From the NCBI GenBank assembly GCA_032622095.1, contig CP136068.1, positions 47,672,443 through 47,736,442 of the forward strand: a DNA stretch of 64,000 nucleotides, written 5' to 3'. This stretch comes from Siphonodentalium dalli. Lineage: Eukaryota; Mollusca; Scaphopoda; Gadilida; Siphonodentaliidae. A program made the position numbers and the translations under genes. The notes beneath the pieces are model-generated. The model was not told the DNA's origin. It ran no database searches and was given only the letters and a program-made list of their open reading frames with translations. Below are positions 10,114 to 55,767 of this stretch, piece after piece (the stretch's first letter is position 1; the number at the start of each line of letters is the position of its first letter).

Positions 10114-10679
10114 CGATAGACCGCGAAAATGGTTAATGTCGTTGATTAGGCCCATTGTTTTTGCTGAAAATATATGATGCGTTGTGCATCATTTTATCTT
10201 GAGAATTACACTTTGAACCATGTTTAAGGTGTGGTTCTTGTTGGCAACAAGACCAATTGGACGTCCTCGAATAATTATAATTTCACAAAACAAGTAAATC
10301 ACCAGCATGTTATATTGTTACGCTATATATGTGTCAGAACTTTAATTTATATTTTTGTTACATGATTTAACATCATACCACATATATTACAATGCATAAT
10401 AAACAGCCATAAATATTTCGGCCCAACACTTTTGTATACAGTCAATGACCATTTATTCAACTTGTCACTGTGTTAAAGGTAGCGTCCGTATTACATATTT
10501 AAGATATGGACCTGTTCTCATTCTAATTTTTCATCGATCGACAGGCATGACATGTACATTTTCAAGCGCTTACATACACTTTATGTGTGGCTTTCCTCTT
10601 AAATGTGAATAGTTTTGAACTTTCAAGAGAAATAAAGTCATCTCATAATCTTCAATGTATGCTACATCTACCATGGACA

Positions 10680-10869
10680 TACAGTAATGCTCTAATTAAT
10701 CGACTTCTTAACCACAGCAGAATTATGGGTAACTTTTCAGGATTTAGTCGGAAATATGGCTTTTTGCCATTCATCAATGGCAACGAGCCATATTTCCGAC
10801 TAAATCCTGAAAAGTTACCAATAATGCTGCTGTGGTTAAGAAGTCGATTAATTAGAGCATTACAGTATG
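10680..10869. mobile_element. Foldback (MITE-like) inverted repeat, about 190 bp
   Basis: The left arm, from CAGTAATGCTCTAATTAATC, is repeated inverted and ends in GAGCATTACAGT. The arms are about 85-90 bp with few mismatches and meet around a short loop near 10765-10785. The open frames on both strands here only mirror each other and are not genes. Confidence 0.85.
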
Positions 10870-12860
10870 TAAACTGCATATGCGAAACACTTTAATGTTA
10901 CAGTTCTTTGTTCCTAAACAGGGTAAATTTAATGATATACCATGCCATAAACGTGGAGAAAGTGTGCTTATAATTCCAACTGATTGCTGATTCTTAACGT
11001 GTGAGTCTACACTAAATCCGGCCATTTATGCAACCACCTCCTATTATATTCAACAGAATATATGTAACACATGAATGAATTTTAGCGACGGATGGGTCAT
11101 TAAATCATTGTCATTGTACATCGTTTGGGTATTTTGCACTCGTCTGTGATTCAAATTCGTTCATTTGTTACATACGTTATGTTGAGTATTATAGGAGATG
11201 GTCCCATAAATGGTCGGATTTAGTGGACAGTACACATAATTGGACAAACTATTGTCTTACAAACAAAAACGTCCATAAAAACTGAAAAGGCCAACAACTA
11301 ACCCCTTTAACTGTTTGTACCAGTTATAACATATAGCACATATCAAAAACTTCTCCTAACGGATTTTGAGAAAGTCACTTTTTACATGTCATGAATGTTA
11401 AATACAATGTCCATGGAGGCCTTACAACACAATATTCACCTTCGTAGTATCTGCCCGACTGTCCAGAAAGGAACACTAACTAGGCTCCGAATTAAAATAT
11501 ATAAGTATTCGTTAGAGAAAATTATATGCATACGAGTAAAGCACAAATTTGCACTTTTCTGTCAGCTTAGAACTGTCCCCATGAACAATACTCTGCGTTG
11601 TCACGATATTAGTTACATTGACAACGTTAACGTCGCTACCAACAGAATATGGTGACATAACGGCTTCGTAGTAGACGCTGACTTGTCGATGGATAAGAAA
11701 CTTGGGGCTCTTTGATGGACAGATGGAAAATATATAATGATAGTGAATACAATTCGTTTATCCAACAACAGAACAACAAAAACATTTAGAAATTAGAGAC
11801 CGAGTAAAGATTGCATGATATTGATGAATGATGTTGAATCATTCAGTGATGTTATTGATGACTATTTGTCTTGATTCGATTTCCGTGATCGATTACTAGT
11901 TGTGCTAGTAGGCCTACTGAATATTGTAAATTATTCTTCAAACTTGAAATAATCATTCTTTGTTTAGGCAATTTTACATCATATCGATTGGTGTCATTTT
12001 GGGTGGGGAATATCCGGGATCATTTTCCGTGCGAATGCTTGTTTCAAAAGAGAATTAATATAGCACTAGCAGTGAGTTGTCGGTAGGCGCCGATCAGCTG
12101 ATTGACCAAAACAAGGGGTTCATGGGCTGAATGTCTACGTAATTATAATTCTGGTACTTTTGCGTGGCTAATTTGTCGAGCAGATACTAAATAAAATGCA
12201 CCGCTGGCGGGAATAGTTATATTCCACTGTGGCCACGAATGAGGTAATTCCAGTATTCACTCGAGAACCGCAGGTGTCCTCTATATATAGAAGACAACTT
12301 AACGTTTGACTCGATTACGCGCAGTGCAGTGACGTATTTTTCGCGCGTTGTCAATGACACCGTGATCCATATTAAACTATGTGCAGTTCAGTATGGTATG
12401 CTATGTTCAATAGAGATACACTACGTGCACGTAATAATATTATCTAATCGGTCCATCAAAAGAGTACTATCATATGGCCGCCTAAATTACATTTATAATG
12501 TCCACATACAGTATTTATGTCTACGTCAATCTAGGGATTACCGCATAGATCACTGATCTCCCTGATTAAAGCAACAGTTTACAATCGCATTTCGTAGTCA
12601 ATCAGACACCGCGTCCGTGACCATGCAGTATTTTCACGTACGATGACCAACTGCAATCAACACTTTCAATGTGTGTCTTTGAAAAATTACTCTGGTAGAC
12701 TTTGATTATTTTTCAATTGATTATGTCGACGAATAGTTAATTATTAAACTGTGTTAATTGTAAGCGATTATTAAATGGCCGATTCAACTTTAGGAAAGGT
12801 AACTAACCGAAGAGGGTTGAATAAATAATGACAGTTAAGAATATTCTACCTGTTTTGTAG

Positions 12861-13921: not shown

Positions 13922-16831
13922 TTTGGGTATGTTTTATTGAGGTTTTGGTATGTTTTATGGAGGTTTTGGTATGTTTTATTGAGGTCTTGGTATGTTTCAT
14001 TGAGGTCTTGGTATGCTTTATTGATGTATTTGTATGTTTTATGTTTTATTGAGGTCTTGGTATGTTTTATTGAGATCTTGGTATGTTTTATTGAGTTCTT
14101 GGTATGTTTTATTGAGGACTTGGTATGTATTATTGAGTTCTTGGTATGTTTCATTGATGTCCCTTGGTATGTTTTATGTTTTATTGAGGTCTTGGTATGT
14201 TTTATTGAGGTCTTGGTATGTTTTATGTTTGATTGAGGTCTTCGTATGTGTTATTGAGGTCTTTGTATGTGTTATGTTTTATTGAGGTCTTGGTATGTTT
14301 TATTGAGGTCGTGGTATGTTTGTTGATGCTTTGGTATGTTTTATCGAGGTCTTGGTATGTTTTATTGAGGTATTGGTGAGTGTATTGGGTCTTGGTATGT
14401 TTTATTTAGGTCTTGGTATGTTTTATTGAGGTATTGGTATGTTTTATTGAGGTATTGGTATGTTTATTGGGTCATTGGTATGTTTTATTGAGGTCTTGTT
14501 ATGTTTTATTGAGGTCTTGGTATGTTTTATTGAGGTCTTGGTATGATTTATTGGGGCTTGGTCTGTTTTATTGAGGTCTTGGTATGTTTTATTGAGGTAT
14601 TGGTTTGTTTTATTGAGGTCTTGGTATGTTTTATTGAGTTCTTGGTATGTTTTATTGAGGTCTTGGTGTGTTTTATAGAGGTCTTGGTATGTTTATTGAG
14701 GTCTTGATATGTTTTATGTAGGTGTTGGTATGTGTATTGGGTCTTGGTGTGTTTTTTGAGGTCTTGGTATGTTTTATTGAGGCCTTGGTATGTTTTATTG
14801 AGGTCTTGGAATGTTTTATGGAGGTATTGGTATGTTTTATTGAGGTCTTTGTATGTTTATTGAGGTACTGGTATCTGTATTGGGTCTTGGTATGTTTTAT
14901 TTAGGTATTGGTATGTTTTATTGAGGTATTAGTATGTTTTATTGAGGTCTTTGTATGTTTATGGAGGTCTTGGTATGTTTTATTGAGGTCTTGGTATGTT
15001 TTATGGAGGTCTTGGTATGTTTTATTGAGGTCTTGGTATGTGTGTTGGGTCTTGGTATGTTTTATCGATGTAATGGTATGTGTTATTGAGGTTTTGGTAT
15101 GTTTTATTGAGGTCTTGGTATGTTTTAGTGAGGTCTTGGTATGTTTTATGGAGGTATTGGTATGTTTTATTGATGTCTTGATATGTTTTATTGAGGTCTT
15201 GTTATGTGTATTGGGTCTTGGTATGTTTTATGGATGTATTGGTATATTTTATGGATGTATTGGTATGTTTTATTGAGGTCTTTGTATGTTTTATTGAGGT
15301 ATTGGTATGTTTTATTGAGGTCTTTGTATGTTTTAATGATGTCTTGGTATGTGTGTTGGGTCTTGGTATGTTTTATTGAGGTCTTGGTATGTGTTATTGA
15401 GGTCTTGGTATGTTCTATTGAGGTCTTGGTATGTGTATTGGGTCTTGTTATGTTTTATTGAGGTCCTGGTATGTTTTATTGAGGTCTTTGTATGTTTTAT
15501 TGAGGTCTTGGTCTGTTTTATTGAGGTCTTGGTCTGTTTTATTGAGGTCTTGGTATGTTTTATGGAGGTATTGGTATGTTTTATTAAGGTCTTGGTATGT
15601 TTTATTGAGGTCTTGGTGTGTTTTATGGAGGTCTTGGTATGTTTTATTGAGGTATTGGTATGTTTTATTGAGGTCTTGGTATGTGTATTGGGTCTTGGTA
15701 TGTTTTATTGAGGTCCTGGTATGTTTTATTGAGGTATTGGTTTGTTTTATTGAGGTCTTGGTATGTGTATTGGGTCTTGGTGTGTTTTTTGAGGTCTTGG
15801 TATGTTTTATTGAGGTCTTGGTATGTTTTATTGAGGTCTTGGAATGTTTTATGGAGGTATTGGTATGTTTTATTGAGGTCTTGGTATGTTTTATTGAGGT
15901 CTTGGTATGTTTTATTGAGGTCTTGGCATGTTTTATTGAGGGCTTGGTATGTTTTATTGAGGTCTTGGTCTGTGTATTGGGGCTTGGTATGTTTTATTGA
16001 GGTCTTGGTATGTTTTATGGAGGTATTGGCATGTTTTATTGAGATCTTGGTATGTTTTATGAAGGTATTGGTATGTGTTATTGAGGTATTGATATGTGTA
16101 TTGGGTCTTGGTATGTTGTATTGAGCTCGCGGTATGTTTTATTGAGGTCTTGTTATGTTTTATTGAGGTCTTGGTATGTGTATTGGGTGTTGATGTGTTT
16201 TATTGAGGTCTTGGTATGTTTTATTGAGGTCTTGGTGTGTGTATTGTGTCATGGTATGTTTTATTGAGGTCTTGGCATGTTTTATTGAGGTATTGATATG
16301 TTTTATGGAGGTATTGGTATGTTTTATGGAGGTATTGGTATGTTTTATTGAGGTATTGGTATTTGTATTGGTCTTGGTGTGTTTTATTGAGGTCTTGGTA
16401 TGTTTTATGGAGGGATTGGTATGTTTTATTGAGGTCTTGGTGTGTGTATTGGGTCTTGGTGTGTTTTATTGAGGTCTTGGTATGCTTTATTGAGGTCTTG
16501 GTATGTGTATTGGGTCTTGGTATGTTTTATTGAGGTCTTGTCGTGTTTTATGGATGTATTGGTATGTTTTATTGAGGTCTTGGTATGTTTTATTGAGGTC
16601 TTGATATGTTTTATTGAGGTCTTGGTATGTTTTTTTAATGTCTTGGTATGTGTATTGGGTCTTGGTATGTTTATTGAGGTCTTGGTATGTTTTATGGAGG
16701 TATTGGTATGTTTTATTGAGGTCTTGGTATGTGTTATGGAGGTATTGGTATGTTTTATTGAGGTCTTGGTATGTTTTATTGAGGTTTTGGTATGTGTATT
16801 GAGGTCTGTATATGTTTTATTGAGGCCTTGG
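13922..16831. repeat. 21-bp minisatellite array, about 2.9 kb
   Basis: Roughly 135-140 degenerate copies of a 21-bp unit with core TTTTATTGAGGTCTTGG. Because 21 is a multiple of three, long open frames appear on both strands (heptads like YVLLRSW on plus, KHTKTSI on minus). These are by-products, not genes. A shorter 19-bp variant containing GTGTATTGGGTCTTGG recurs about every 50-350 bp and shifts the frame. The array lies in the intron between the two halves of Ig domain B. Confidence 0.97.
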
Positions 16832-24405: not shown

Positions 24406-24548
24406 ACTGAAGTGAAATAGTTATCATCGATTAAAACTTGTATGACCAACTATTTCCTAGCACGAGCTGACTTTATGCCCCGCCCCCCTTACCGAATGTA
24501 CAAGCAAAATGGCCGTGCCAAATTGTGCTGCGACTGTCAACGAATTTG
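24406..24548. repeat. Tandem-duplicated intron segment, copy 1 (empty-site homologue)
   Basis: Starting ACTGAAGT, this about 150-bp segment matches, with substitutions and small gaps, the sequence that starts ACTGAAGTTATAAC at 24561 and resumes at 38522 after the palindrome. Shared landmarks are CATCGA-TAAAACTT, TATGACC-ACTATTTC, CGAATGT and CAAAATG/TAAAATG. It lacks the palindrome, so it shows what the target looked like. Confidence 0.75.
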
Positions 24549-24574: not shown

Positions 24575-24580
24575 AATAGC
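24575..24580. repeat. Left target-site duplication AATAGC
   Basis: Six bases directly outside the left terminus (TGATGATACCCC). The same six bases lie directly outside the right terminus at 38522-38527. Confidence 0.75.
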
Positions 24581-24769
24581 TGATGATACCCCGCCTGTTT
24601 GGGGTCATTTCAGGAACGATAACTCTATTCTCTGCAGTACACGGTGTTTGACCTATATTCTCCGCCCACGCATTGCATCATGGTCTATTTGTATGCCGGT
24701 TGTGCATGTCCGGACATGACCCGTTGGTTATATCCAATGGGATAATGTTAAAGTGACACTCGCATTGAA

Positions 24770-25020
24770 AACTTACAAAAAATTCAAAAATTCAAAAACT
24801 TCAAAAATTTCAAAAACTTCAAAAACGTCAAAAACTTCAAAAACTTCAAAAACTTCAAAAATCGCAAAAAATTTCAAAAAAGTTTAAAAACTTCAAAATA
24901 CTCAAAAATTTCAAAAAACTTAAAAAACTTTTCAAAAAGAAACAAAAATGAAAAACAGAAAAAAATTCATAAATATATGAAAAACTTAAAAAACTTCAAC
25001 TTTTTCTAAAATTCAAAAAT
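24770..25020. repeat. A-rich array of about 9-bp CTTCAAAAA units (left arm)
   Basis: Degenerate CTTCAAAAA/TTCAAAAA units. Between the landmark variants CGTCAAAAA and TCGC this arm has three units, whereas the mirror copy has four, which accounts for the only sizeable indel between the arms. Confidence 0.9.
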
Positions 25021-25175
25021 ACTTTAAAATTAAATTAAAATTAACTGTCTTTTAATATATCTAACCCACTGCCACTTCTAAGGGTTCCACACTACACCTG
25101 AGGGGATATTGAGTGGTCTACACACGTCTCCTAAACCCTAGAATAAGATCCAGCCCATAAGAAACACCGCCTCCT

Positions 25176-25305
25176 GCAATGCCTGTCATTCGAATCTGAC
25201 GCAATCCCTACTTCTGGCGCAATGCCTGAGTCATTCGAATCTGGCGCAATCCCTACTTCCGGCGCAACGCCTGAGTCATTGGAATCTGACGCAATCCCTC
25301 GCGAA
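25176..25305. repeat. 54-bp tandem repeat, about 2.5 copies (left arm)
   Basis: Repeating GTCATTCGAATCTG, GCAATCCCTACTTC and GGCGCAATGCCTGA. The mirror copy is at about 37788-37917. Confidence 0.85.
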
Positions 25306-27381
25306 ACCTACCGGCTGACTCCACACCCATCGGCTAAACGTTGTATCACATGCTTATTATTTGATCATATCGTGGAAATTCAATGTTTTGTCATCACTCA
25401 TGAGATATAACCCATATCCACTGAAAAAGGGTGGATATCCTCTATTTATTTATAATTTTTTCTTTGTTATCTTTTTTTTATCCCTCTTTTTTATCTACCA
25501 CTTCCTGTTTTTATTCGCTCTTCTTTTTCTTACAACTTCTAATCCCTCATAATCTTCGAATATCCACTTTCATCTCCAAGTTTTTGAAAAAATTCCTTGT
25601 TTAGTAGCACCTCCAGATGGGCTCTATAGAATTTGAACGAGGCATCCATCTTGGATATTACTCTTTCTATGACTAAATCCGTTAGCACGCTCTACAGATA
25701 TCATATAGGTAGCACGCTCTACAGATGTCATATAGGCCTCTTCACATCTTGTTTTCCATAATTTATTCATTCCTAATCGCTCCATTGACTGTAACAAATT
25801 AAATTACCCCCTCCCCCTGTATTTAGAATACATCCTTGATTATTAATATTTCCTCCTTTCATGGTGTGCATGTTCCTTGGGACATCTTTGCTAATGTGAA
25901 GCCACACCTATTATATATATATATATATACAACTTTAAAAGCCCGCGAAAATATTACTCATATTATAGACTTCCCTTTGAAGACCTTTGTATGTGACAAT
26001 GATCCGTAATATTGTTTCTAAGTGACACTGGCCAGTGAAACTGATACTACGGGTATGAACTAGCCAACTTCACATCGTAACAATAATAAAAGGGACACTT
26101 CATCTATATCAGTCTCAAAACGTGTTGGTACACATCTGTGTGGAAACTAAAACCAATCACTCTTCGTCCGTCATCCGTACATAATTGTAATATAATTTTC
26201 TCAGAAACCACGGGATCCCTTTGGCTGAAATTTGGTCTCAACATGGGATAAGAAATTATCCATGGAAGACAACAGTGTCCGTGTGGGGGAGAAGCTTCGT
26301 AGTGTTTCGCTGTCGCCATGGTGTTTGTTTGGGTATAGGCATGGGTGGTGAGTGTGGTTCTCATATGGTATGAACTAGCCTTTACTGACTGAGGTAATTT
26401 AGTGCACATGTCATCACTTCACTGATAACCATTATATGGTCAAATCCCTACACTATCAAACGCAATGTTTCAATAATGGGTTTTCTTAAAATTTTGACTA
26501 AATATTGGTTATATTATACGCATCAGCGATCCTTCTTAATAACGCTCTGTATATTTTCAAACGCATTGCACTAAATGGGTTTGGAATAGCCATACAGGAA
26601 AGGAGAAACTGAGGTCCTGGGTAGGTCGACTGCATATAGCAGTATATATGGGGTACAGACATGGACAGCAATGGGTTCCTCGTGGCTTCTGGTCTACACA
26701 TGACATATTAAAGTTAACCACACCCATCGGCGCGCCTTTATTGGGCTATGAAGCGCCATACAGGCTCGAATCATGGCCTTCGCCATGTGTTTCTATTTGA
26801 ACCCACATTAGTAACTAAATAAAATCTTTCTCTCCAGGTTGTTTCACGCCATAACCTTGATTTGGAAAGCTTGAAGGGCTAATTAAGCTTCAATTTAAAT
26901 CCCAACATTTTCTTATTTGAAGAACGTATCTGGTTAAACATGTCCACCATAGTAAGCTCATTTAATTCAAAGAGCTTCACACATAGTCCCACTAGTAATG
27001 ATGTGTCGTTATTTACTACAGAAATGGTCATATAGAATACAATACAACACATTTTGGTCACATACCTTAAAGGTGCACGTCACTTTCGCAAGATATCGAA
27101 CTGACCATGTATAGAGTGGAATGACATGTCGGGTATCAAATGTATAATCAGTTCCAGTATTTCGTCCATAAGGCAGTTTTGGTTGTAACATCATTGTGTA
27201 TGACGGTTCATTCATATGATATCTTAGCGGTTGCACACGATACTGTCTGTTGTATTTTATGTCTTATATCATGTATATTAATTGCTCCATGGATGGTAGG
27301 AGTATGGCATTGGTGTCTGGTTCTTCGATGTATTCTAGTCATAGTTCATTCATATTATTACTCTAAAATCTCCATTAAATG

Positions 27382-28700
27382 GAGAAACTAAAGAGCCCAT
27401 ATTATGTAGACTAGTGTATAAATACTTACTTCATGCATTATTTTTATCAATTATATGTATTATAACTCCCATCAAGATAGGCTGTTATACAGAGGAAACA
27501 AAGCATGTACCAAGTGACAGTCTGTACCAAGTGACAGTCTCATGTCACGAAAGGCCTACTATGTGGACACATTTTCTTATCAAAACGCTCTATTATGTAG
27601 GGGGTTATCAACCATTGGTCTGGAAAAGGCATACGAGCGGAAGGCGTGTATACACATTTATTCGATGTACTCTTTAATCGTCGATTTCTCTTTATTGTCG
27701 TTAATTTATAGCATTATTAGTAGGAATCTAAACTCGCCGTTATATTGAGAAAATAATGCGTCAATACCAGTCAATACTGCTTTATTGGCGGTAAATGAAA
27801 TTATTGAATCATGTATCGCAGCTAAACAAGCGAGACAACTGATCACAACACAAAAATTAGTAATATTTCTGAAGCCTTGAGTGGGTTGTAATACACAGTG
27901 TAAATTTTCATTATTGCTACCATTTAAGGAAACATGCCCCCGATAGGGCTACTATGCGAACACATGTCTATATTAATTTCACATATTCCTTACCGTTCAT
28001 TCATATATACTCCAAGCTCTCTGTTAATACAGAGGCATCAAAACATTGGTCTGGAAGAGACCTACTATGTGGATGCGTGTATACATATTTACTTGATGTA
28101 TTCTTTAATCGTTCATTTCTCTTTATTATCGTTCATTTATAGCATTATTAGAAGAAATTTAGTCTAAAATCTCCATTACATGGAGACAATAAAGAGCCCA
28201 TATGGTGTAGACTAATGCATAAATACTTACTTCATGTATTCTTTTCACCAATTATATGTATTGTACATCCTATACATTTAGTCCGTTATACAGAGGAAAC
28301 AAAGCATGTACTACGTGGCAGTTTCATATGACGATAAGACCTACTATGTGAACACATGTGCATATTAATTTCACATATTCTTCTCAAAACGCTCTATTTT
28401 ATACGGGGGGGTATCAAACATTGGTCTGGAAAAGGCATGCTATGTGGACGCGTGTATACATATTGACTTCATATATGCATTCATAGTTCATTTCTCTTAA
28501 TTGTCGTTCATTTAATAGCATTATTAGTAGAAATATAGTCTAAAACCGTCGGTATATGGAGAATATATAGCGTCAATACTGTTTTATTGTTGGTAACTCA
28601 AATTATTGCATTATGTATCGCAACTAAACAAGCGAGATAACTCATAAATTCTTAATAGTTCTGATGTCTATGGCAGTTCACACAGTGTATATTTTCATTG
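27382..28700. repeat. 800-bp tandem duplication (left arm)
   Basis: The block beginning near AAAGAGCCCATAT at 27390 recurs 800 bp later, and TGTATCGCAGCTAAACAAGC near 27812 recurs near 28612. The copies are clearly diverged, unlike the arms themselves. The second copy is incomplete. The mirror is at about 34393-35711. Confidence 0.8.
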
Positions 28701-29984
28701 TTGTTACCATTTTAGTGCATACATTACTGATTTCTGTGTAAGAACGCCGGTCTCCATTGTTGTTATGATTGTGCCTATAACTGTCCATATTCTTAAAGCA
28801 AGTACGGTACCTCTATGTGATATGATCTATAAAAATTTCCATTTTCACAGGTAAATCACGTATAAACGCTCTTTAATGTATAGTTAAACTGAGTTTTCAC
28901 ATGCAGGGCTATGTCTTTGTGGACTATATACGTGGTATACTTCAGTATATACACGAAGTGAATGTGTTCTAAGTATACGTATCTGATTTATGTATACGTC
29001 CGTGTTTCTTAAAGCAAATCCAATACATATTAGTGCGTTATATTATGATGTACATTAAGTGCCCTTTTCACTGTTAAATCAAGTAAAAAGGCCCTCTACT
29101 ATAGTTAACTATTCAGTTCCACGTACGCTATAAGATCTATGGTGGTCCGGTGTGTCTTATCAATATGCCATTATATGCACGAATGTAATGTGTTCAAATA
29201 TGTGGGTTATGATGTATACTTTAATGTTAAAGTATATAAGCACTCTTTAAGATATGCATATGCAGAATGTTGCCTCTTTACACTGACAGAAAAAAAAGGA
29301 ATATATAATTTTGAGTACTACTCTTCATAAAACGTTAGAAAACCATAATCTAACAACGAATATCGAAGAACAATGTAATTACTTGATAAGCATTGTAAAT
29401 ATTTCGTCTGTTTTAAATAAAATGGAAATATTTCGTCTATTTGAAATACAGTTGGAAGCAACAATCAAGTATTTAAATGAAATTTGGACCAAAATCTTAT
29501 AATTTGAGAAAACGTATATAATTTCTATCGAAGTCTTATAATAAAGGAAGGCTTTGTGCGAATCCATTCGGTCTAATGTGTGAATGTGTTCATCATCGCA
29601 AATATAATGATGCAGAAATGAATATTTCCTAGAATAATGTTAACATAGCTTGTATTTAACCGAAATAATATAGCATTTGAGTTAAAATGTTTCATATTAG
29701 GACCATAACGAACCAATGCATAAAAATACAATATTTTGTTTTTCATTCTCGATCAAAATAATGCAGGGTTGTCAATTATCAACAAAAAACAAATACTTTG
29801 AAACAAAAACGATGACATAAGAAGGAATATCCAAGAGCTAGTGTGAAAATAACCCTCACATTTATAAAAAAAAAACAATAAAATTAAAGTTTTCGAGTAA
29901 GTCCTTCAAATTTATTGAATTTTTTCGTCTATGTTGGATCAAATTTGACACAAAAATCAATTAGCTCACTAACAGTTCGCGCAA

Positions 29985-31140
29985 TATCTCATATTTTGAG
30001 AAAACGTTTGCAATTTTAGACAACAATATTGCTAGTGAAGGTGAATATTTCATCCTGGAACTCATGAAATATGATAAAAATAGATGTAAAGACACTTCAC
30101 GAGCCCTCATATATTTGAGTTATGAACATAAAGTCATCTCATAGTGCCATTGTACCCCATAATTTGGTCAGGAGAAATATGTATTTCATATTTGACCCTT
30201 CATCTGTGGTAAAAAATGAATTAAGGGACATGGGAGTGGTGTCCCTGGACATTAACCTAGAGCATAAATTGACTCAATTATGCAATTTTAGGCAACATTC
30301 TTGCCAGGGAAAGTGTATATTTCATGTTGGAACTCATCCAATGTGATAAACATGCATCATAAGACACTTAATGAGCTCTGATGACTTTGAGTTATGACAA
30401 CAACGGCATCTCATACTAGATTGTAAGCCATAATTTGGTCAGGAAAAGTGTAAATTTCATATTTTATCCTACATGTTTTTTAACAATCAATGTAATTACA
30501 CCCCATCGGTCGCCTAGACACAGCGTAAATGTTCTCAAGTTTTCAATTGTAGGCCACAATGTCGGCAGTGAAGGTAAACATTTCATGTTGGAACCCATGA
30601 AATGTGATAAAATGGATAAAAAGACACTTCCTGAGTCCTTATGACTGAGTTATGAACATAAAGGGAACTCATAGTGTATTGTAGGTCATAATTTGGTCAG
30701 GAAAATTGTAAATTTCATGTCTTAAGCTCCATGTGTTTTTAAAATATATGTAATTACAACCATTGGGTCCCTAGAGATCAATCCACAGTCCATGTGTAGT
30801 CCATATGCAATTTTAGGGAACAGTTTTGCTAGTGAAGGTGAACATTCCATGCTGGAACTCATGAAATATGATAAAAATAGATGAAAAGACACTTTCTGAG
30901 GCCTTGGTCGGGAGAAATGTGTATTGTATTTTGACCCTTGATGCGTGGTAGCAATCAATGAAATTACACCCCATGGTATCCTCAGATATGAAGCAACATC
31001 ATAAATGCACTCAGTTTTGGCAATTTAGACAACATTGTTGATGGGGAAGTTGTACATGTCATGTTGGAACTGGTGAAATGTGATAATAATTGATCAAAAG
31101 ACACTCGATGAGCCCTGATGGGTTTCAATTATGGTCATAA
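29985..31140. repeat. About 260-bp tandem repeat, 4-5 copies (left arm)
   Basis: Recurring blocks: TTCATGTTGGAACTCATGAA, ATAATTTGGTCAGGA, AATTACACCCCAT and GCAATTTTAGGCAACA. Starts of the GGAACTCATGAA block are near 30055, 30325, 30590, 30850 and 31060, giving spacings of about 210-275 bp. The mirror is at about 31953-33108. Confidence 0.85.
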
Positions 31141-31312
31141 AGGCATCTGATAGTGTCATTATACAACGGGGAAATTTGTGAAGCGCTAACAAAGCGTATC
31201 TACACGGTGTTATACGATCCAAAATGATCCTGATATAAGAAATGCAATCTAGATCATACTCAGTATCTTCGTATCGACTGAATATATCGTTATTCGATGG
31301 TGTTTCCGACAT
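31094..31312 (-). CDS. Hypothetical small ORF near palindrome centre (left copy)
   Basis: The ATG at 31312 (minus) gives a 72-residue frame beginning MSETPSNNDIFSRYEDTEYD. It can be extended upstream without a stop for about 30 codons if it is not a start. It points outward from the centre, and its last codons run into the 260-bp tandem array. It is identical to the mirror frame at 31781-31999. No domain recognised; it may simply be a non-coding open frame. Confidence 0.3.
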   Translation of the reverse strand: MSETPSNNDIFSRYEDTEYDLDCISYIRIILDRITPCRYALLALHKFPRCIMTLSDAFMTIIETHQGSSSVF

Positions 31313-31531
31313 ACCTCCGTCTTTACTTTTCTTATGCCTTTGTGAATTGTAGTTCGTCGATAATATATTTCTGCACAAATGGCACCCGTGTATTGTCTCG
31401 AATCATGGGAAGAACTATCGTCCTTATACCAGCGAAAAGATGAGCGAATATGGTGTGGTATTATAAACTCGCCGCCTTCGTACCTCTATTTATCGTTTAG
31501 AGTTAATGTTCTTAGATAAAAAATAGGCGCG

Positions 31532-31559
31532 CGTGCGGCCCCCTCATCCCCACTGCCGC
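31532..31559. other. GC-rich 28-bp centre of the palindrome
   Basis: This spacer between the arms is C/G-rich in otherwise AT-rich DNA. The first flanking bases (AATAGGCGCG / CGCGCCTATT) are a perfect stem. Differences between the arms are concentrated within about 100 bp of the centre: two extra T's, AATG versus CAATT-type changes next to TTCTTAGAT, and one substitution in the CGCCGC tract. Confidence 0.9.
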
Positions 31560-31780
31560 CGCGCCTATTTTTTTTATCTAAGAACAATTACTCTAAACGA
31601 TAAATAGAGGTACGAACGCGGCGAGTTTATAATACCACACCATATTCGCTCATCTTTTCGCTGGTATAAGGACGATAGTTCTTCCCATGATTCGAGACAA
31701 TACACGGGTGCCATTTGTGCAGAAATATATTATCGACGAACTACAATTCACAAAGGCATAAGAAAAGTAAAGACGGAGGT

Positions 31781-31999
31781 ATGTCGGAAACACCATCGAA
31801 TAACGATATATTCAGTCGATACGAAGATACTGAGTATGATCTAGATTGCATTTCTTATATCAGGATCATTTTGGATCGTATAACACCGTGTAGATACGCT
31901 TTGTTAGCGCTTCACAAATTTCCCCGTTGTATAATGACACTATCAGATGCCTTTATGACCATAATTGAAACCCATCAGGGCTCATCGAGTGTCTTTTGA
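31781..31999 (+). CDS. Hypothetical small ORF near palindrome centre (right copy)
   Basis: The 72-residue mirror copy of the minus-strand frame at 31094-31312, reading MSETPSNNDIF, then YIRIILDRITPCRYALLALH. The two copies diverge from a shared central region of about 470 bp, an arrangement that would allow a bidirectional promoter. This is inference only. Confidence 0.3.
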   Translation: MSETPSNNDIFSRYEDTEYDLDCISYIRIILDRITPCRYALLALHKFPRCIMTLSDAFMTIIETHQGSSSVF

Positions 32000-34900
32000 T
32001 CAATTATTATCACATTTCACCAGTTCCAACATGACATGTACAACTTCCCCATCAACAATGTTGTCTAAATTGCCAAAACTGAGTGCATTTATGATGTTGC
32101 TTCATATCTGAGGATACCATGGGGTGTAATTTCATTGATTGCTACCACGCATCAAGGGTCAAAATACAATACACATTTCTCCCGACCAAGGCCTCAGAAA
32201 GTGTCTTTTCATCTATTTTTATCATATTTCATGAGTTCCAGCATGGAATGTTCACCTTCACTAGCAAAACTGTTCCCTAAAATTGCATATGGACTACACA
32301 TGGACTGTGGATTGATCTCTAGGGACCCAATGGTTGTAATTACATATATTTTAAAAACACATGGAGCTTAAGACATGAAATTTACAATTTTCCTGACCAA
32401 ATTATGACCTACAATACACTATGAGTTCCCTTTATGTTCATAACTCAGTCATAAGGACTCAGGAAGTGTCTTTTTATCCATTTTATCACATTTCATGGGT
32501 TCCAACATGAAATGTTTACCTTCACTGCCGACATTGTGGCCTACAATTGAAAACTTGAGAACATTTACGCTGTGTCTAGGCGACCGATGGGGTGTAATTA
32601 CATTGATTGTTAAAACACATGTAGGATAAAATATGAAATTTACACTTTTCCTGACCAAATTATGGCTTACAATCTAGTATGAGATGCCGTTGTTGTCATA
32701 ACTCAAAGTCATCAGAGCTCATTAAGTGTCTTATGATGCATGTTTATCACATTGGATGAGTTCCAACATGAAATATACACTTTCCCTGGCAAGAATGTTG
32801 CCTAAAATTGCATAATTGAGTCAATTTATGCTCTAGGTTAATGTCCAGGGACACCACTCCCATGTCCCTTAATTCATTTTTTACCACAGATGAAGGGTCA
32901 AATATGAAATACATATTTCTCCTGACCAAATTATGGGGTACAATGGCACTATGAGATGACTTTATGTTCATAACTCAAATATATGAGGGCTCGTGAAGTG
33001 TCTTTACATCTATTTTTATCATATTTCATGAGTTCCAGGATGAAATATTCACCTTCACTAGCAATATTGTTGTCTAAAATTGCAAACGTTTTCTCAAAAT
33101 ATGAGATATTGCGCGAACTGTTAGTGAGCTAATTGATTTTTGTGTCAAATTTGATCCAACATAGACGAAAAAATTCAATAAATTTGAAGGACTTACTCGA
33201 AAACTTTAATTTTATTGTTTTTTTTTTATAAATGTGAGGGTTATTTTCACACTAGCTCTTGGATATTCCTTCTTATGTCATCGTTTTTGTTTCAAAGTAT
33301 TTGTTTTTTGTTGATAATTGACAACCCTGCATTATTTTGATCGAGAATGAAAAACAAAATATTGTATTTTTATGCATTGGTTCGTTATGGTCCTAATATG
33401 AAACATTTTAACTCAAATGCTATATTATTTCGGTTAAATACAAGCTATGTTAACATTATTCTAGGAAATATTCATTTCTGCATCATTATATTTGCGATGA
33501 TGAACACATTCACACATTAGACCGAATGGATTCGCACAAAGCCTTCCTTTATTATAAGACTTCGATAGAAATTATATACGTTTTCTCAAATTATAAGATT
33601 TTGGTCCAAATTTCATTTAAATACTTGATTGTTGCTTCCAACTGTATTTCAAATAGACGAAATATTTCCATTTTATTTAAAACAGACGAAATATTTACAA
33701 TGCTTATCAAGTAATTACATTGTTCTTCGATATTCGTTGTTAGATTATGGTTTTCTAACGTTTTATGAAGAGTAGTACTCAAAATTATATATTCCTTTTT
33801 TTTCTGTCAGTGTAAAGAGGCAACATTCTGCATATGCATATCTTAAAGAGTGCTTATATACTTTAACATTAAAGTATACATCATAACCCACATATTTGAA
33901 CACATTACATTCGTGCATATAATGGCATATTGATAAGACACACCGGACCACCATAGATCTTATAGCGTACGTGGAACTGAATAGTTAACTATAGTAGAGG
34001 GCCTTTTTACTTGATTTAACAGTGAAAAGGGCACTTAATGTACATCATAATATAACGCACTAATATGTATTGGATTTGCTTTAAGAAACACGGACGTATA
34101 CATAAATCAGATACGTATACTTAGAACACATTCACTTCGTGTATATACTGAAGTATACCACGTATATAGTCCACAAAGACATAGCCCTGCATGTGAAAAC
34201 TCAGTTTAACTATACATTAAAGAGCGTTTATACGTGATTTACCTGTGAAAATGGAAATTTTTATAGATCATATCACATAGAGGTACCGTACTTGCTTTAA
34301 GAATATGGACAGTTATAGGCACAATCATAACAACAATGGAGACCGGCGTTCTTACACAGAAATCAGTAATGTATGCACTAAAATGGTAACAACAATGAAA
34401 ATATACACTGTGTGAACTGCCATAGACATCAGAACTATTAAGAATTTATGAGTTATCTCGCTTGTTTAGTTGCGATACATAATGCAATAATTTGAGTTAC
34501 CAACAATAAAACAGTATTGACGCTATATATTCTCCATATACCGACGGTTTTAGACTATATTTCTACTAATAATGCTATTAAATGAACGACAATTAAGAGA
34601 AATGAACTATGAATGCATATATGAAGTCAATATGTATACACGCGTCCACATAGCATGCCTTTTCCAGACCAATGTTTGATACCCCCCCGTATAAAATAGA
34701 GCGTTTTGAGAAGAATATGTGAAATTAATATGCACATGTGTTCACATAGTAGGTCTTATCGTCATATGAAACTGCCACGTAGTACATGCTTTGTTTCCTC
34801 TGTATAACGGACTAAATGTATAGGATGTACAATACATATAATTGGTGAAAAGAATACATGAAGTAAGTATTTATGCATTAGTCTACACCATATGGGCTCT

Positions 34901-36391
34901 TTATTGTCTCCATGTAATGGAGATTTTAGACTAAATTTCTTCTAATAATGCTATAAATGAACGATAATAAAGAGAAATGAACGATTAAAGAATACATCAA
35001 GTAAATATGTATACACGCATCCACATAGTAGGTCTCTTCCAGACCAATGTTTTGATGCCTCTGTATTAACAGAGAGCTTGGAGTATATATGAATGAACGG
35101 TAAGGAATATGTGAAATTAATATAGACATGTGTTCGCATAGTAGCCCTATCGGGGGCATGTTTCCTTAAATGGTAGCAATAATGAAAATTTACACTGTGT
35201 ATTACAACCCACTCAAGGCTTCAGAAATATTACTAATTTTTGTGTTGTGATCAGTTGTCTCGCTTGTTTAGCTGCGATACATGATTCAATAATTTCATTT
35301 ACCGCCAATAAAGCAGTATTGACTGGTATTGACGCATTATTTTCTCAATATAACGGCGAGTTTAGATTCCTACTAATAATGCTATAAATTAACGACAATA
35401 AAGAGAAATCGACGATTAAAGAGTACATCGAATAAATGTGTATACACGCCTTCCGCTCGTATGCCTTTTCCAGACCAATGGTTGATAACCCCCTACATAA
35501 TAGAGCGTTTTGATAAGAAAATGTGTCCACATAGTAGGCCTTTCGTCACATGAGACTGTCACTTGGTACAGACTGTCACTTGGTACATGCTTTGTTTCCT
35601 CTGTATAACAGCCTATCTTGATGGGAGTTATAATACATATAATTGATAAAAATAATGCATGAAGTAAGTATTTATACACTAGTCTACATAATATGGGCTC
35701 TTTAGTTTCTCCATTTAATGGAGATTTTAGAGTAATAATATGAATGAACTATGACTAGAATACATCGAAGAACCAGACACCAATGCCATACTCCTACCAT
35801 CCATGGAGCAATTAATATACATGATATAAGACATAAAATACAACAGACAGTATCGTGTGCAACCGCTAAGATATCATATGAATGAACCGTCATACACAAT
35901 GATGTTACAACCAAAACTGCCTTATGGACGAAATACTGGAACTGATTATACATTTGATACCCGACATGTCATTCCACTCTATACATGGTCAGTTCGATAT
36001 CTTGCGAAAGTGACGTGCACCTTTAAGGTATGTGACCAAAATGTGTTGTATTGTATTCTATATGACCATTTCTGTAGTAAATAACGACACATCATTACTA
36101 GTGGGACTATGTGTGAAGCTCTTTGAATTAAATGAGCTTACTATGGTGGACATGTTTAACCAGATACGTTCTTCAAATAAGAAAATGTTGGGATTTAAAT
36201 TGAAGCTTAATTAGCCCTTCAAGCTTTCCAAATCAAGGTTATGGCGTGAAACAACCTGGAGAGAAAGATTTTATTTAGTTACTAATGTGGGTTCAAATAG
36301 AAACACATGGCGAAGGCCATGATTCGAGCCTGTATGGCGCTTCATAGCCCAATAAAGGCGCGCCGATGGGTGTGGTTAACTTTAATATGTC

Positions 36392-36595
36392 ATGTGTAGA
36401 CCAGAAGCCACGAGGAACCCATTGCTGTCCATGTCTGTACCCCATATATACTGCTATATGCAGTCGACCTACCCAGGACCTCAGTTTCTCCTTTCCTGTA
36501 TGGCTATTCCAAACCCATTTAGTGCAATGCGTTTGAAAATATACAGAGCGTTATTAAGAAGGATCGCTGATGCGTATAATATAACCAATATTTAG
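36392..36595 (+). CDS. Hypothetical ORF in palindrome arm (mirror at 26498-26701, -)
   Basis: A 67-codon ATG frame ending MRLKIYRALLRRIADAYNI. It lies in line with outward-facing frames at 35878-36084, 36032-36214 and 36684-36989, which might be exons or relics of a single gene, though I found no phase-consistent splicing. Product unknown. Confidence 0.2.
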   Translation: MCRPEATRNPLLSMSVPHIYCYMQSTYPGPQFLLSCMAIPNPFSAMRLKIYRALLRRIADAYNITNI

Positions 36596-36683
36596 TCAAA
36601 ATTTTAAGAAAACCCATTATTGAAACATTGCGTTTGATAGTGTAGGGATTTGACCATATAATGGTTATCAGTGAAGTGATGAC

Positions 36684-36989
36684 ATGTGCACTAAATTACC
36701 TCAGTCAGTAAAGGCTAGTTCATACCATATGAGAACCACACTCACCACCCATGCCTATACCCAAACAAACACCATGGCGACAGCGAAACACTACGAAGCT
36801 TCTCCCCCACACGGACACTGTTGTCTTCCATGGATAATTTCTTATCCCATGTTGAGACCAAATTTCAGCCAAAGGGATCCCGTGGTTTCTGAGAAAATTA
36901 TATTACAATTATGTACGGATGACGGACGAAGAGTGATTGGTTTTAGTTTCCACACAGATGTGTACCAACACGTTTTGAGACTGATATAG
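36684..36989 (+). CDS. Hypothetical ORF in palindrome arm (mirror at 26104-26409, -)
   Basis: A 101-codon ATG frame, the longest ATG frame in the arm that is not made of tandem repeat. It reads MCTKLPQSVKASSYHMR, later DDGRRVIGFSFHTDVYQHV. It is conserved without interruption in both arms, as everything there is. No family recognised. Confidence 0.22.
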   Translation: MCTKLPQSVKASSYHMRTTLTTHAYTQTNTMATAKHYEASPPHGHCCLPWIISYPMLRPNFSQRDPVVSEKIILQLCTDDGRRVIGFSFHTDVYQHVLRLI

Positions 36990-38521
36990 ATGAAGTGTCC
37001 CTTTTATTATTGTTACGATGTGAAGTTGGCTAGTTCATACCCGTAGTATCAGTTTCACTGGCCAGTGTCACTTAGAAACAATATTACGGATCATTGTCAC
37101 ATACAAAGGTCTTCAAAGGGAAGTCTATAATATGAGTAATATTTTCGCGGGCTTTTAAAGTTGTATATATATATATATATAATAGGTGTGGCTTCACATT
37201 AGCAAAGATGTCCCAAGGAACATGCACACCATGAAAGGAGGAAATATTAATAATCAAGGATGTATTCTAAATACAGGGGGAGGGGGTAATTTAATTTGTT
37301 ACAGTCAATGGAGCGATTAGGAATGAATAAATTATGGAAAACAAGATGTGAAGAGGCCTATATGACATCTGTAGAGCGTGCTACCTATATGATATCTGTA
37401 GAGCGTGCTAACGGATTTAGTCATAGAAAGAGTAATATCCAAGATGGATGCCTCGTTCAAATTCTATAGAGCCCATCTGGAGGTGCTACTAAACAAGGAA
37501 TTTTTTCAAAAACTTGGAGATGAAAGTGGATATTCGAAGATTATGAGGGATTAGAAGTTGTAAGAAAAAGAAGAGCGAATAAAAACAGGAAGTGGTAGAT
37601 AAAAAAGAGGGATAAAAAAAAGATAACAAAGAAAAAATTATAAATAAATAGAGGATATCCACCCTTTTTCAGTGGATATGGGTTATATCTCATGAGTGAT
37701 GACAAAACATTGAATTTCCACGATATGATCAAATAATAAGCATGTGATACAACGTTTAGCCGATGGGTGTGGAGTCAGCCGGTAGGTTTCGCGAGGGATT
37801 GCGTCAGATTCCAATGACTCAGGCGTTGCGCCGGAAGTAGGGATTGCGCCAGATTCGAATGACTCAGGCATTGCGCCAGAAGTAGGGATTGCGTCAGATT
37901 CGAATGACAGGCATTGCAGGAGGCGGTGTTTCTTATGGGCTGGATCTTATTCTAGGGTTTAGGAGACGTGTGTAGACCACTCAATATCCCCTCAGGTGTA
38001 GTGTGGAACCCTTAGAAGTGGCAGTGGGTTAGATATATTAAAAGACAGTTAATTTTAATTTAATTTTAAAGTATTTTTGAATTTTAGAAAAAGTTGAAGT
38101 TTTTTAAGTTTTTCATATATTTATGAATTTTTTTCTGTTTTTCATTTTTGTTTCTTTTTGAAAAGTTTTTTAAGTTTTTTGAAATTTTTGAGTATTTTGA
38201 AGTTTTTAAACTTTTTTGAAATTTTTTGCGATTTTTGAAGTTTTTGAAGTTTTTGAAGTTTTTGAAGTTTTTGACGTTTTTGAAGTTTTTGAAATTTTTG
38301 AAGTTTTTGAATTTTTGAATTTTTTGTAAGTTTTCAATGCGAGTGTCACTTTAACATTATCCCATTGGATATAACCAACGGGTCATGTCCGGACATGCAC
38401 AACCGGCATACAAATAGACCATGATGCAATGCGTGGGCGGAGAATATAGGTCAAACACCGTGTACTGCAGAGAATAGAGTTATCGTTCCTGAAATGACCC
38501 CAAACAGGCGGGGTATCATCA

Positions 38522-38527
38522 AATAGC
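38522..38527. repeat. Right target-site duplication AATAGC
   Basis: Directly follows the right terminus GGGGTATCATCA and matches 24575-24580. Confidence 0.75.
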
Positions 38528-38640
38528 ATCGACTAAAACTTATATGACCCACTATTTCTCCAGACGAAGTGACAGTACGCCTCCTTGACGAATGTTCATG
38601 TGAGTAAAATGCCCATTCCAAAGTTTTTCGACTTGAATAT
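38528..38640. repeat. Tandem-duplicated intron segment, copy 2 (interrupted by the palindrome)
   Basis: Continues the copy that starts at 24561. CATCGACTAAAACTTATATG here aligns with CATCGATTAAAACTTGTATG at 24425. Confidence 0.75.
38564..38599 (+). CDS. Candidate RTK mini-exon (36 nt)
   Basis: Between acceptor TATTTCTCCAG and donor TCAT|GTGAGT a 36-nt segment reads DEVTVRLLDECS in phase 1-1, compatible with both neighbours (exits of domain C and entry of 38667). It would be followed by a 67-nt intron. The gene also joins in frame without it, so it may be optional or not used. The homologous copy at about 24461 has a CTAG acceptor but lacks the donor. Confidence 0.35.
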
Positions 38641-51112: not shown

Positions 51113-51795
51113 GTAAGTACCGTAGAATCAGTCTCTTTAAAAACTCGAGAAACTGTTACAATATTTACGACTCTATAACTCTAATTTACTTGTCGTTTAT
51201 CTAATAATGGGATTTCGACTTGGTTAGTGAAGTAACAGTTCGTTGCATGGCGGAGTCAGTGAGTGGTTGCATTTAAATGAGAGGTAACTGGTGTGTTGAC
51301 ATTTTCCACGTAGAGCGAAGTATAATACAGAATACCGGTGATATATTAATAATTGAATGCGCTAAAGTTACTCATCGCGATTTAGTAGACATTTGAGTAT
51401 TTTTTTCAGCCGATAATACTTATTACTGACAATTTGTTCGGATATCCTGCTGTATTTATAATTAATGCTGAAAACTACGATTCTCACAAATATTTTCACA
51501 CCAGACGTGTGCTCCATATTTGCATCGAAAGCATATATCACGTAATATTGGGAACGCCGCATCATCCTATAAATATTGTATGTACACATGTAGGACTGTT
51601 CGAGATATACATCTCGCAAATATTTTAAAGAGACATGTATAGCATGTGCTCGTCTCTCAATGTAAGTTAATCCCAAACAATATCATTATAAGTGAGTCCA
51701 TTATATTCAGAACAACAAGAATGTGTAGCTGTTCGATCAGCCTGTTCTCCGAAAAACCAGCACATTATATGCGTGTAATAGAACTTGTTTCGTTA

Positions 51796-52060
51796 GATCA
51801 TCTGCGTAAAATCGCCTCATTTTGCGTCGATAATGAGCTGAACATGAGAACATTTTAATCACACTATCGACTTATAATAAGGTGATTCTTAGCCGATTAT
51901 GTGCGAACAATGGCACAAATAAGCCAACTCATGATTTTCAAGTTCACGCTCTTTAAATGTGTTTTCACTGTGGCCCTCGCTATAAAACGAAATAACGGAT
52001 AAGAGTCCTGTATCTGCTTATTTCACAATCAAATAATCGCATTATGTACATACTTCACAT
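51796..52060 (+). mobile_element. Short inverted-repeat element, copy 1
   Basis: Starts ATCATCTGCG-AAAATCGCCTCAT and includes TCGATAATGAG, CACTATCGACTTATAATAAG, CACGCTCTTTAAATGTG, CACTGTGGCC and CTGCTTATTTCACAATCA. The same order is seen at 54178-54425. Confidence 0.75.
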
Positions 52061-52069
52061 TACAGGTCG

Positions 52070-52315
52070 AGTATGTGCGTATTTTTGCGAGGATATGCTG
52101 GTTCAACAGTCGCAGCCGTTATTTCGTTTTTTGGTCCGGGCCACACTCATTTTAAAGAGCGTACACCAGACAAGTCGTGGGTTGCTTATCTATGTCATTG
52201 TCAGCACATAATCTGCTTAGAATCGCCTCATTATGTGTCGATAATGCGGCTAAATGTATCTCATTTCCACCACAGTATCGACTCAGAATGAGTGGATTCT
52301 AAGCAGATTAACTAC
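52070..52315 (-). mobile_element. Short inverted-repeat element, copy 2 (reverse)
   Basis: Reverse orientation: CCGGGCCACACTCATTTTAA, AGAGCGTACACC and CATTGTCAGCACATAATCTG are reverse-complement counterparts of copy 3. It then shares ATCTGCTTAGAATCGCCTCA with the others. Confidence 0.7.
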
Positions 52316-52434
52316 ATAAATAAGTTCTATTAAAAGCAGATAACGTGCTGGTTTTCGGGCGAACAGGCTGGCTGGTTTGATATGGGATGTGGACACACTT
52401 GGGGTGCATCCCCACTACTGATCGCGTGTGCCAA

Positions 52435-53861: not shown

Positions 53862-54177
53862 GTGAGCTTGTCGATTGAATCAATATCATGACAACTACAC
53901 CAATTGGATCATTACAGATTATCTATATCTTAATGGCACTTCTTCCGACAGCAAGATTAAAATGTCTAAAAAACCAACTTGCAATATAGACGTATATGTA
54001 TAAGTCCATAAATAGCAAATGAAACATGTCCTGTTGCACAATGTCACTTAGAAGGTTGTTTTTATGTTTCAAAACACAAACCGGATGCTCAGACGGAGTA
54101 AATTGGCTTACAACTGTTAAGCCTATTCTCCCGAAAATTCGCACGTTATTTGCTTACAATCGAACTTGATGTAGGTA

Positions 54178-54425
54178 GATAATCTGCTTAGAATCGCATA
54201 ATTTCTGGCCAATAATGTGCTGGAAATGCGAGCGTTTTATTCACATTATCGACTCATAATGAGGCCATTCTAAGCAGATTATCTGCAGACAATGACAGAA
54301 ATAAGCAAACTCGCGATTTTTCAGGTGAACGCTCTTTAACATGTGTATTCACTGTGGCCGCCCGCGATATAACGGCGGTGACTCCATTGTCTGCTTATTT
54401 CGTAATCAGATAATCACATTATGTA
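54178..54425 (+). mobile_element. Short inverted-repeat element, copy 3
   Basis: GATAATCTGCTTAGAATCGC at the left end is mirrored internally by CTAAGCAGATTATCTG. Then come GTGAACGCTCTTTAACATGT, CACTGTGGCC and CTGCTTATTTCGTAATCAGA. The internal mirror (about 110 bp) makes the left half a hairpin. Confidence 0.78.
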
Positions 54426-55767
54426 CCTACGTGGCACTCGATGTATACAGTCAAAGACTACACTGCATGAGTACGCTGATGTGCAGTCAAGTCTACCAAA
54501 TATTGACTTTATGTTTGTCTGTATTGCCGAACACGTGCCACACACGTTAAGAAAATCGTTTTGTATTCATGATGTATCTTTCTTTTATATTCTCCGGTTG
54601 ACTGGTCTCTTCGACACGAAAGTTTTATGTCATAACATGAATCTATACAGTAATTTGAATCAATTGGATATTCGGCTTTTGGGATATTTTATTTTGAATT
54701 CATACACCGGAAATAATGTCCATTCGAAAATAATGTGTATTGTTTCCGAGTGGCTTTCTTTTTTCGGAAAATAAACTAAGACTGGCATCAATCTAAACAT
54801 ATTAGCCACCGCTTGGGTAGCCTGTGCAATGATACCCTGGACTGGGTCATTGTGCATCACTTAAACGCTTCCTATTTTACAGTTGTCGCCTGATGTACGT
54901 TGTGGGGGCTGCACTGGCATGTAGTTCAGAGCGGGTGTAGGTGCACTATATACACGTCACTTAAGTGCTCCCATCAGCGTACTTACAATTAATGTGGTGG
55001 AATCATGACTGGTTCAATTCAATAGTTTTTTACTCCGTCCATGACTTATGGAACTGGATGATACCACATATATAATGAATTACAAATTAAACAACAGCTA
55101 CATGTAAATATTATATATACTTAGTTGCCCAAAAAAAGAAGAAGGTAAATATGGATTTGAAGTAGTATTAATTGATCGTAGAGATGGGTAACAGCCAAAT
55201 GGTTTCGTATCGATGGTTTTGACGGATGAGTGAGTGAGTCTGTATATGTACATGTATGTACATAAAAGTTTTCAAACTGATGCAATATTTAAGATCTCTT
55301 TGGCAAATGTAGCCAAATGCACTAGCTCAGTCTTGTTCGTAGTGTTCATTAGTGCTGCCAATTTCGTGTGGCTTAGAAACATTTGGTAGTAGTCCTGCGG
55401 GCAGAGTTTACTACGCTATAAGTACAAATGTAATGGTACTCATCGCCGGTCTCATCTGAGTCGCAGAGCGTGCATTGGGGTTAAGAAATATTTGAACTTT
55501 TCCAGGAAGAAACATCAACCGGTAAGCGGGAGTTTCTTGTTCTAAGTCGCGTCATATTTACCATGAACTCTCCGGGTAATTCAGTTTAATATTTCTCCAT
55601 GCCAAATGATTCCTTCACGTTGTGATATATGACACATTTAGCCTCTGTTTGGAGTTATATAGTCCATTCGACAAGGAACAGGTCCTTACGGTTTTGTTCC
55701 ACATATCTAGTTAGGTATTCTCCTTCTACAGCTTTGTCATTCCAAACATAAGCCAGCCAACATTTAT

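Follow-up and report, generated by a model that had tools for sequence, protein, structure and literature searches.

A gene-less 14-kb palindrome with Polinton/Maverick ends in the genome of Siphonodentalium dalli

Structure and insertion site of the palindrome

The DNA analyzed here, a stretch of 64,000 nucleotides from the scaphopod mollusc Siphonodentalium dalli (contig CP136068.1; C8:47672443-47736442 in the coordinates used below) that we call the window, contains at positions 24581 to 38521 a palindrome which is probably a non-autonomous satellite of Polinton/Maverick elements in the same genome, moved by Polinton enzymes. Comparison of the window with itself gave one inverted self-match of 13,941 bp, 99.62% identical over 13,955 aligned columns, composed of two arms of about 6.95 kb each and a central loop of 28 bp. 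With the loop excluded, the arms differ by five substitutions (left-arm positions 27546, 30477, 31476, 31504, and 31506), by the length of a CAAAAACTT-type repeat (one 9-bp unit), and by that of an A run (2 bases). The features are as follows.

24575..24580, no strand: left 6-bp target duplication, AATAGC (from the sequence; the empty site L055 continues through here)
24581..31525, +: left arm, without recognizable gene (self-comparison; Pfam, six frames)
24581..24671, +: left terminus, 91 bp, starting TGATGATACCCC, common to gene-bearing Polinton ends (end alignment)
24768..24930, +: subterminal CAAAAACTT-type tandem repeat, the site of the 9-bp difference in arm length
27358..28715, +: two diverged repeat copies of about 560 bp (about 73%) within the left arm, with mirror-image counterparts in the right (self-comparison)
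30006..30905, +: diverged tandem repeats (about 73%) in the left arm near the center, mirrored in the right arm (self-comparison)
31526..31565, no strand: asymmetric central hairpin/loop, 40 bp, enclosing the 28-bp center (genome matches; folding)
31566..38521, -: right arm, the inverted left arm (self-comparison)
38163..38334, -: right-arm subterminal repeat, longer than the left by one 9-bp unit (arm alignment)
38431..38521, -: right terminus, 91 bp, an exact inverted copy of the left one (self-comparison; end alignment)
38522..38527, no strand: right 6-bp target duplication, AATAGC (from the sequence)

Folding of a 93-nt central stretch gave a hairpin with a 15-nt loop at -30 kcal/mol (z = -9.8), and none of 200 shuffles was equally good. 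The longest start-to-stop open reading frame (ORF) within an arm encodes 101 aa, and a Pfam search of the six frames of the left arm returned nothing above family cutoffs, the sole subthreshold match having an E value of 0.03. ARAGORN detected no tRNA or tmRNA, and Rfam gave nothing at gathering score. The original prediction had described a near-perfect palindrome with exact ends, AATAGC flanks, a 28-bp center, and no recognizable gene of the Polinton/Maverick families. This description stands, including the 12-bp ends and the duplication, and the center can now be placed within the 40-bp hairpin.

A paralogous region lying about 59 kb before the start of the window (L055) is identical to the joined flanks of the palindrome at 186 of 226 columns and continues past the insertion point without the element, which makes it a diverged empty site. 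By eye, the sequence to the right of the element (38522-38560) resembles that at about 24415-24460, 120 to 165 bp to its left, and the target of the insertion may have been a locally duplicated sequence.

Related copies and gene-bearing Polintons in the genome

The genome was scanned over 2.23 Gb in nine contigs. The terminal 31-mer, with up to three mismatches allowed, had 90 matches, 43 of them forward and 47 reverse, where the control had none; most form inverted pairs. Hand sorting resolved these into 18 inverted pairs 13.9 to 14.5 kb apart, 18 inverted pairs 2 to 7.5 kb apart, one 17.4-kb pair, 7 single matches, and three clusters including direct neighbors (9 matches). Nine of the 18 long pairs are palindromes by sequence (window included), 4 have the palindrome center near their midpoint, and 5 are gene bearing, 2 of them known by sequence and 3 from internal matches to integrase and PC4. 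The palindrome center was found 160 times, 133 times as a 40-base form and 27 times as a 41-base one, against no matches for the controls, and the matches listed include places on every one of the nine contigs. A chance origin is therefore excluded by the 160 centers and 90 terminal matches against none in the controls. Candidate matches numbered 854 for a 1,201-bp arm piece and 452 for a near-center piece, with the best 40 scored for each, which hints at further copies. The best 40 of the 854 arm matches were all 100% identical; 38 of them lie in inverted pairs, and the 2 unpaired ones have the center at the expected distance.

Eight palindromes were missing from the terminal 31-mer list, and a check of their ends showed that all eight have other terminal variants. 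The terminus varies at bases 9 to 36, with 16 versions in 31 elements, yet the arm interior is uniform in the 40 matches scored, which suggests that end modules have been exchanged between elements. The first 60 bases are the same on the left and right in 29 of the 31 elements, L048 and L052 showing a one-base difference. Two other loci with such termini are unusual. The sole 17.4-kb pair (L063, C4:280818788-280836231) contains a 1.2-kb mid-piece matching neither the palindrome nor the Polinton L017/L018 described below, and L062 (C2:214057500-214066500) consists of tandem units of about 3.05 kb, each containing one Polinton-type terminus followed by an identical flank, as if an insertion had been tandemly duplicated along with its flank.

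Among 10 fetched copies, 2 (C7:95.6 Mb and C8:4.6 Mb) have the palindrome's ends but are nonpalindromic, with inverted repeats of only 101 bp, and the C8 element is more than 98% identical to the C7 element. Over 91 bp, the right terminus of the window palindrome and the right end of the C7 element show 98.9% identity, and the CAAAAACTT-type repeat is also found just inside the left end of the Polinton. The C7 element (L017/L018) encodes an rve integrase (PF00665; E value, 5.8e-11) in L017, together with a subthreshold chromodomain match, and in L018 a DNA_pol_B_2 polymerase (PF03175), with an E value of 7.7e-9 in one piece (above the cutoff) and of 0.004 in the next (below it). Integrase, DNA_pol_B_2, and 6-bp duplication together identify the two gene-bearing partners, as judged from sequence, as being of the Polinton/Maverick type. 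TBP-like (PF00352; E value, 8e-15) and PC4-like (PF02229; E value, 3.5e-13) matches lie at L017:951-1484 (+) and L018:4536-5054 (+), respectively; we know of no such basal transcription factors as usual Polinton cargo. Two further Polinton ORFs, of 426 aa and of 266 aa, had no Pfam match at an E value of 0.01; the latter contains GATKSGKT, which we take to be Walker-A-like.

The integrase has at least 113 genomic matches. A search of viral contigs with the integrase found no relative (one pattern match, unconfirmed), and the exact terminal 24-mer had no matches there. When the stop-to-stop ORFs (at least 90 aa) of L017/L018 were compared with the left arm, the only match was through an ORF in the shared terminus, and homology of the palindrome to the interior of the Polintons and shorter elements examined was limited to ends and subterminal repeats. 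Among short Polinton-ended elements, L048 (just 2.16 kb in total), L052, L053, and L054 contain a stretch about 28 to 29% identical to the Polinton ORF for a putative packaging ATPase.

Target duplications were audited in 31 elements, namely, 9 whole palindromes, 2 whole gene-bearing elements, 8 palindromes by their ends, 10 elements each covered by a single stretch (L045 to L054), and 2 gene-bearing fold-backs by their ends. Within this set, C3_43 and C3_45 represent one duplicated insertion, and L043 sits in an AT repeat. An exact 6-bp duplication was present in 28 of the 31 (L037 and L039 included), while a 7-bp match was found in none (two judged by eye). The duplication of C2_4.335 agrees at five of six bases, and that of L048 reads, by eye, ATTACC next to an extra TGA. 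The original prediction had proposed that the palindrome is mobile, had suggested a genome search for its termini with 6-bp duplications, and had named a lack of other copies or empty sites, combined with long reads turning back at the center, as what would speak against it. Such a search yielded the 90 terminal matches, the audit showed 28 exact duplications, and other copies and a diverged empty site were both found, so that on the first half of that condition mobility is supported rather than refuted.

Fold-back Polintons, arm symmetry, and other repeats of the window

Two 40-base markers from the Polinton, one at the left end and one at the right end (PC4), had 64 and 68 genome matches, respectively (controls, 0). 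Left and right markers lay 9 to 13 kb apart, a full-length arrangement, in 42 cases. Neighboring matches of one marker less than 20 kb apart formed 7 left and 8 right pairs, and all 15 were inverted, none direct; 9 of these were sampled by sequence, of which 8 proved palindromic. Long inverted arms of Polinton sequence are present in L045, L046, L049, and L050 (left end) and in L065 to L067 (right end), those of L066 and L067 being more diverged and older. The pair sampled as L056-L058 has a matching duplication and a palindromic center. Seven of the 18 shorter terminal pairs were fetched, and their inverted arms measured at least 1.3 kb in five, 0.66 kb in one, and 0.19 kb in one. The right flank of L065 (C1:26576700-26584100) begins near the center of a window-type palindrome, and its 302-bp left flank shows no match to that palindrome.

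The arms of L046 extend over 3,755 bp with 1 mismatch, and those of L049 extend over 4,272 bp with 2. At the L046 junction, the forward arm runs up to position 4048 of L017, whereas 4302 is where the inverted arm begins, the two sharing TGAACTT (7 nt); a strand reaching 4302, folding onto 4042-4048, and then extending would yield exactly the observed loop of 247 nt. The L049 junction has 7 nt (CCCGGTG) in common and a loop of 487 nt, while that of L045 has a weak match of 2 nt and a loop of about 2.04 kb. The loops of these three elements, and the 7-nt microhomology at two of the three mapped junctions, are what snap-back priming predicts. Polintons themselves give rise to fold-back palindromes, seemingly in separate events, as no two of the mapped fold points (three in all) coincide. 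L045, L046, L049, L050, and L065 resemble the window palindrome in being palindromic with similar ends (and, in L045, L049, and L050, in their 6-bp duplications) but, unlike it, keep left-end or right-end Polinton genes.

We compared arms within and between palindromes over cores of about 6,030 sites, leaving aside alignment columns 1 to 1,200, the 60 bases at the center, and all gapped columns. Arms differed at 0 to 16 sites within an element and at 5 to 115 sites between elements. Differences between elements were mostly symmetric, that is, present in both arms: 16 symmetric and 1 asymmetric for C4_111 versus C8_176, 96 and 6 for the window versus C8_176, 10 and 6 for the window versus C4_28, and 105 and 1 for C2_4.908 versus C4_111. 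The comparison of C2_4.335 with C3_43, copies with more single-arm change, gave 46 and 29, and the smallest contrast (C2_4.908 versus C2_216) gave 5 and 3. C3_43 and C3_45, in contrast, have the same duplication and flanks identical at 300 of 300 positions on each side, which makes them, as far as the flanks tell, either a single insertion that was subsequently duplicated or two haplotypes; they differ by 1 symmetric and 26 asymmetric changes, with 2 further arm differences already common to both. Since differences across sites are mostly symmetric while those of this single pair are mostly asymmetric, the arms are homogenized during the mobile cycle and not in the chromosome.

The window contains other repeats. 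A 2.9-kb array at 13926-16831 comprises about 139 copies of the 21-bp unit GGTATGTTTTATTGAGGTCTT and is extremely skewed between strands (GC skew of 0.72 at 14001-16000). A separate, spacer-free palindrome of 194 bp, 93.8% self-complementary, lies at 10677-10870, and an imperfect palindrome of 633 bp (72%) lies at 51738-52370, with a related half at 54120-54430 in direct and inverted orientation; the latter palindrome is perhaps an older foldback-type element.

Origin of the palindrome and alternative explanations

No integrase or polymerase genes were found in the palindrome, and we therefore regard it as a non-autonomous satellite rather than as a Polinton proper. By analogy with the fold-back Polintons, the family would have been founded by a single snap-back event in protein-primed, strand-displacing replication, in which the growing strand left its template, annealed to itself through a few matching bases, and was then extended along its own sequence as far as the 5' end. 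An inverted dimer would result, its loop small and asymmetric and its two ends the same. It would then have spread as a palindrome, with the Polinton polymerase recognizing its ends and the Polinton integrase inserting it. In each cycle, the single strand would form a 7-kb hairpin in which the arms pair and differences are corrected or copied across, renewing the symmetry, and after insertion the arms would diverge independently. The original prediction had considered the 6-bp duplication compatible with Polinton/Maverick, which proved correct, the link being the gene-bearing Polintons with the same ends. Its suggestion of a wholly unknown class of element is less apt, as the palindrome is better understood as part of the Polinton system, from which it would derive by folding back and on which it depends for its movement.

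Several observations weigh against this explanation. The arms have no detectable likeness to the Polinton interior examined, which thus offers no parent for the family. Replication, packaging, and movement of the satellite are what we infer, and Pfam gave no confirmation of a capsid, protease, or packaging ATPase in the one helper scanned. The contrast between symmetric and asymmetric differences depends on one pair duplicated after insertion. Among the fold-backs, L046 and, outside the 31-element audit, L065 have no target duplication; the pair sampled as L059-L061 has a matching duplication, but the fetched 2-kb middle (L060) lacks self-complementarity; and three of the eight right-marker pairs (C7:6368099/6370235, C7:16180683/16188885, and C9:13618051/13625370) have the orientation opposite to that of a simple right-end fold-back. 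Direct arrangements also occur, namely, terminal clusters at C1:59.88, C2:214.06, and C3:68.70 Mb and, in the integrase protein list, one direct pair of two lineages 17.6 kb apart (C5:224.73/224.75 Mb).

The best surviving alternative, although an improbable one, is an ordinary inverted repeat whose arms are kept alike by chromosomal gene conversion, as in sex-chromosome palindromes, and whose dispersal is incidental. It would fit the arm differences within elements (0 to 16 per about 6,030 sites), which are mostly below those between elements (up to 115), but in the C3_43/C3_45 pair, a single one, 26 differences affect one arm and 1 affects both, and exact ends, 6-bp duplications, and 160 centers require a mobile mechanism. 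Close behind it, by our estimate, is the proposal that the palindrome is not inherited as such but remade at each insertion from a nonpalindromic, single-arm master. Such a master would likewise change both arms together; however, one asymmetric 40-bp center recurs 160 times, and no single-arm copy was seen among the best 40 of 854 arm matches, 38 being paired and 2 having the center.

A foldback-type cut-and-paste transposon with very long inverted repeats, of the Galileo/P superfamily or MULE kind, is more improbable still. According to PMC3573991, Galileo of Drosophila has a P-superfamily transposase, a 7-bp duplication, and repeats of up to about 1.26 kb, and its copies with two terminal inverted repeats (TIRs) resemble the window palindrome in their long repetitive repeats, with little between them, and in being moved in trans; non-autonomous Galileo/Foldback copies are, on the same account, nearly all long, internally repetitive inverted repeats, with chimeric copies whose ends have been exchanged. 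Here, however, the duplication ends after 6 bp, the next position not matching, the arms are far longer than the Galileo repeats of up to about 1.26 kb given in that source, and the partner examined has an integrase and PolB and no P or MULE transposase, although no exhaustive search for such transposases was made. The least credible alternative is a false palindrome assembled from fold-back reads, an artifact class that some long-read methods are known to yield as near-perfect palindromes, since there are 160 centers with all nine contigs represented among the matches listed, the copies examined (except one duplicated pair) have distinct flanks with two-sided duplications, and some copies carry real arm differences.

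The preferred explanation, a Polinton satellite, can be set against known systems. The palindrome shares with Polinton/Maverick elements the 6-bp duplication, near-identical terminal inverted repeats, and, in this genome, a total length of about 14 kb, but differs from them in having no recognizable gene and in being an inverted repeat from end to end. The Polinton/Maverick family is described in PMC8097293 and PMC6431247, and PMC8097293 gives (AG)3 or (AGT)2 as terminal motifs of vertebrate Mavericks. The window palindrome, which has TG...CA ends and begins TGATGATA, carries neither of these vertebrate motifs; since related elements were found through this end or through the arm, they provide no independent test of the terminal motif.

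Snap-back, self-complementary genomes of the adenovirus and adeno-associated virus (AAV) type arise when a strand-displaced or hairpin intermediate folds back, giving inverted dimers with small loops, and the unit length may equal the packaging length. Those genomes arise in infected cells or vector preparations, whereas the palindrome is integrated and inherited, with one lineage of at least 160 copies. The 13 palindromes measure 13.94 to 14.39 kb and the 5 gene-bearing elements 14.0 to 14.5 kb, although this comparison covers only the 18 terminal pairs chosen as being about 14 kb apart. The length match is at most a weak hint of packaging at helper length, of the kind known for self-complementary AAV genomes, because palindromes inherit one length by descent, making this a single coincidence, and because shorter fold-backs have also integrated. 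It is conceivable, although we hold it doubtful, that the palindrome is a naturally self-complementary satellite of a DNA virus, a gene-less parasite of Polinton virions held at about 14 kb by packaging, whose 7-kb hairpin resets the arms in each cycle and whose end swapping tracks helper subfamilies.

The components are already known: Polintons, transposons of the fold-back kind, and viral genomes formed by snap-back. The literature consulted includes PMC3573991, PMC2836005, PMC6431247, and PMC8097293. In the open-licence PMC literature we found nothing that deals with Polintons of palindromic or fold-back form, although such papers may exist elsewhere, and no high-copy, gene-less, end-to-end palindromic Polinton satellite with concerted arms.

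Protein-primed replication of Polintons has so far been inferred from their genes, and we know of no direct genomic trace of it. Palindromes formed by fold-back, whose arms can be dated and whose junctions show microhomology, would supply one and could serve to count failed replications across species. The paired-arm test distinguishes changes made in the mobile cycle from those made after insertion, which is seldom feasible for DNA transposons. The palindrome centers, at 160, outnumber the helper, for one family of which 42 full-length arrangements were counted, and if the satellite reading is true, the palindrome would be a heritable genome of the defective-interfering kind, whose effect on the spread of its helper could be tested.

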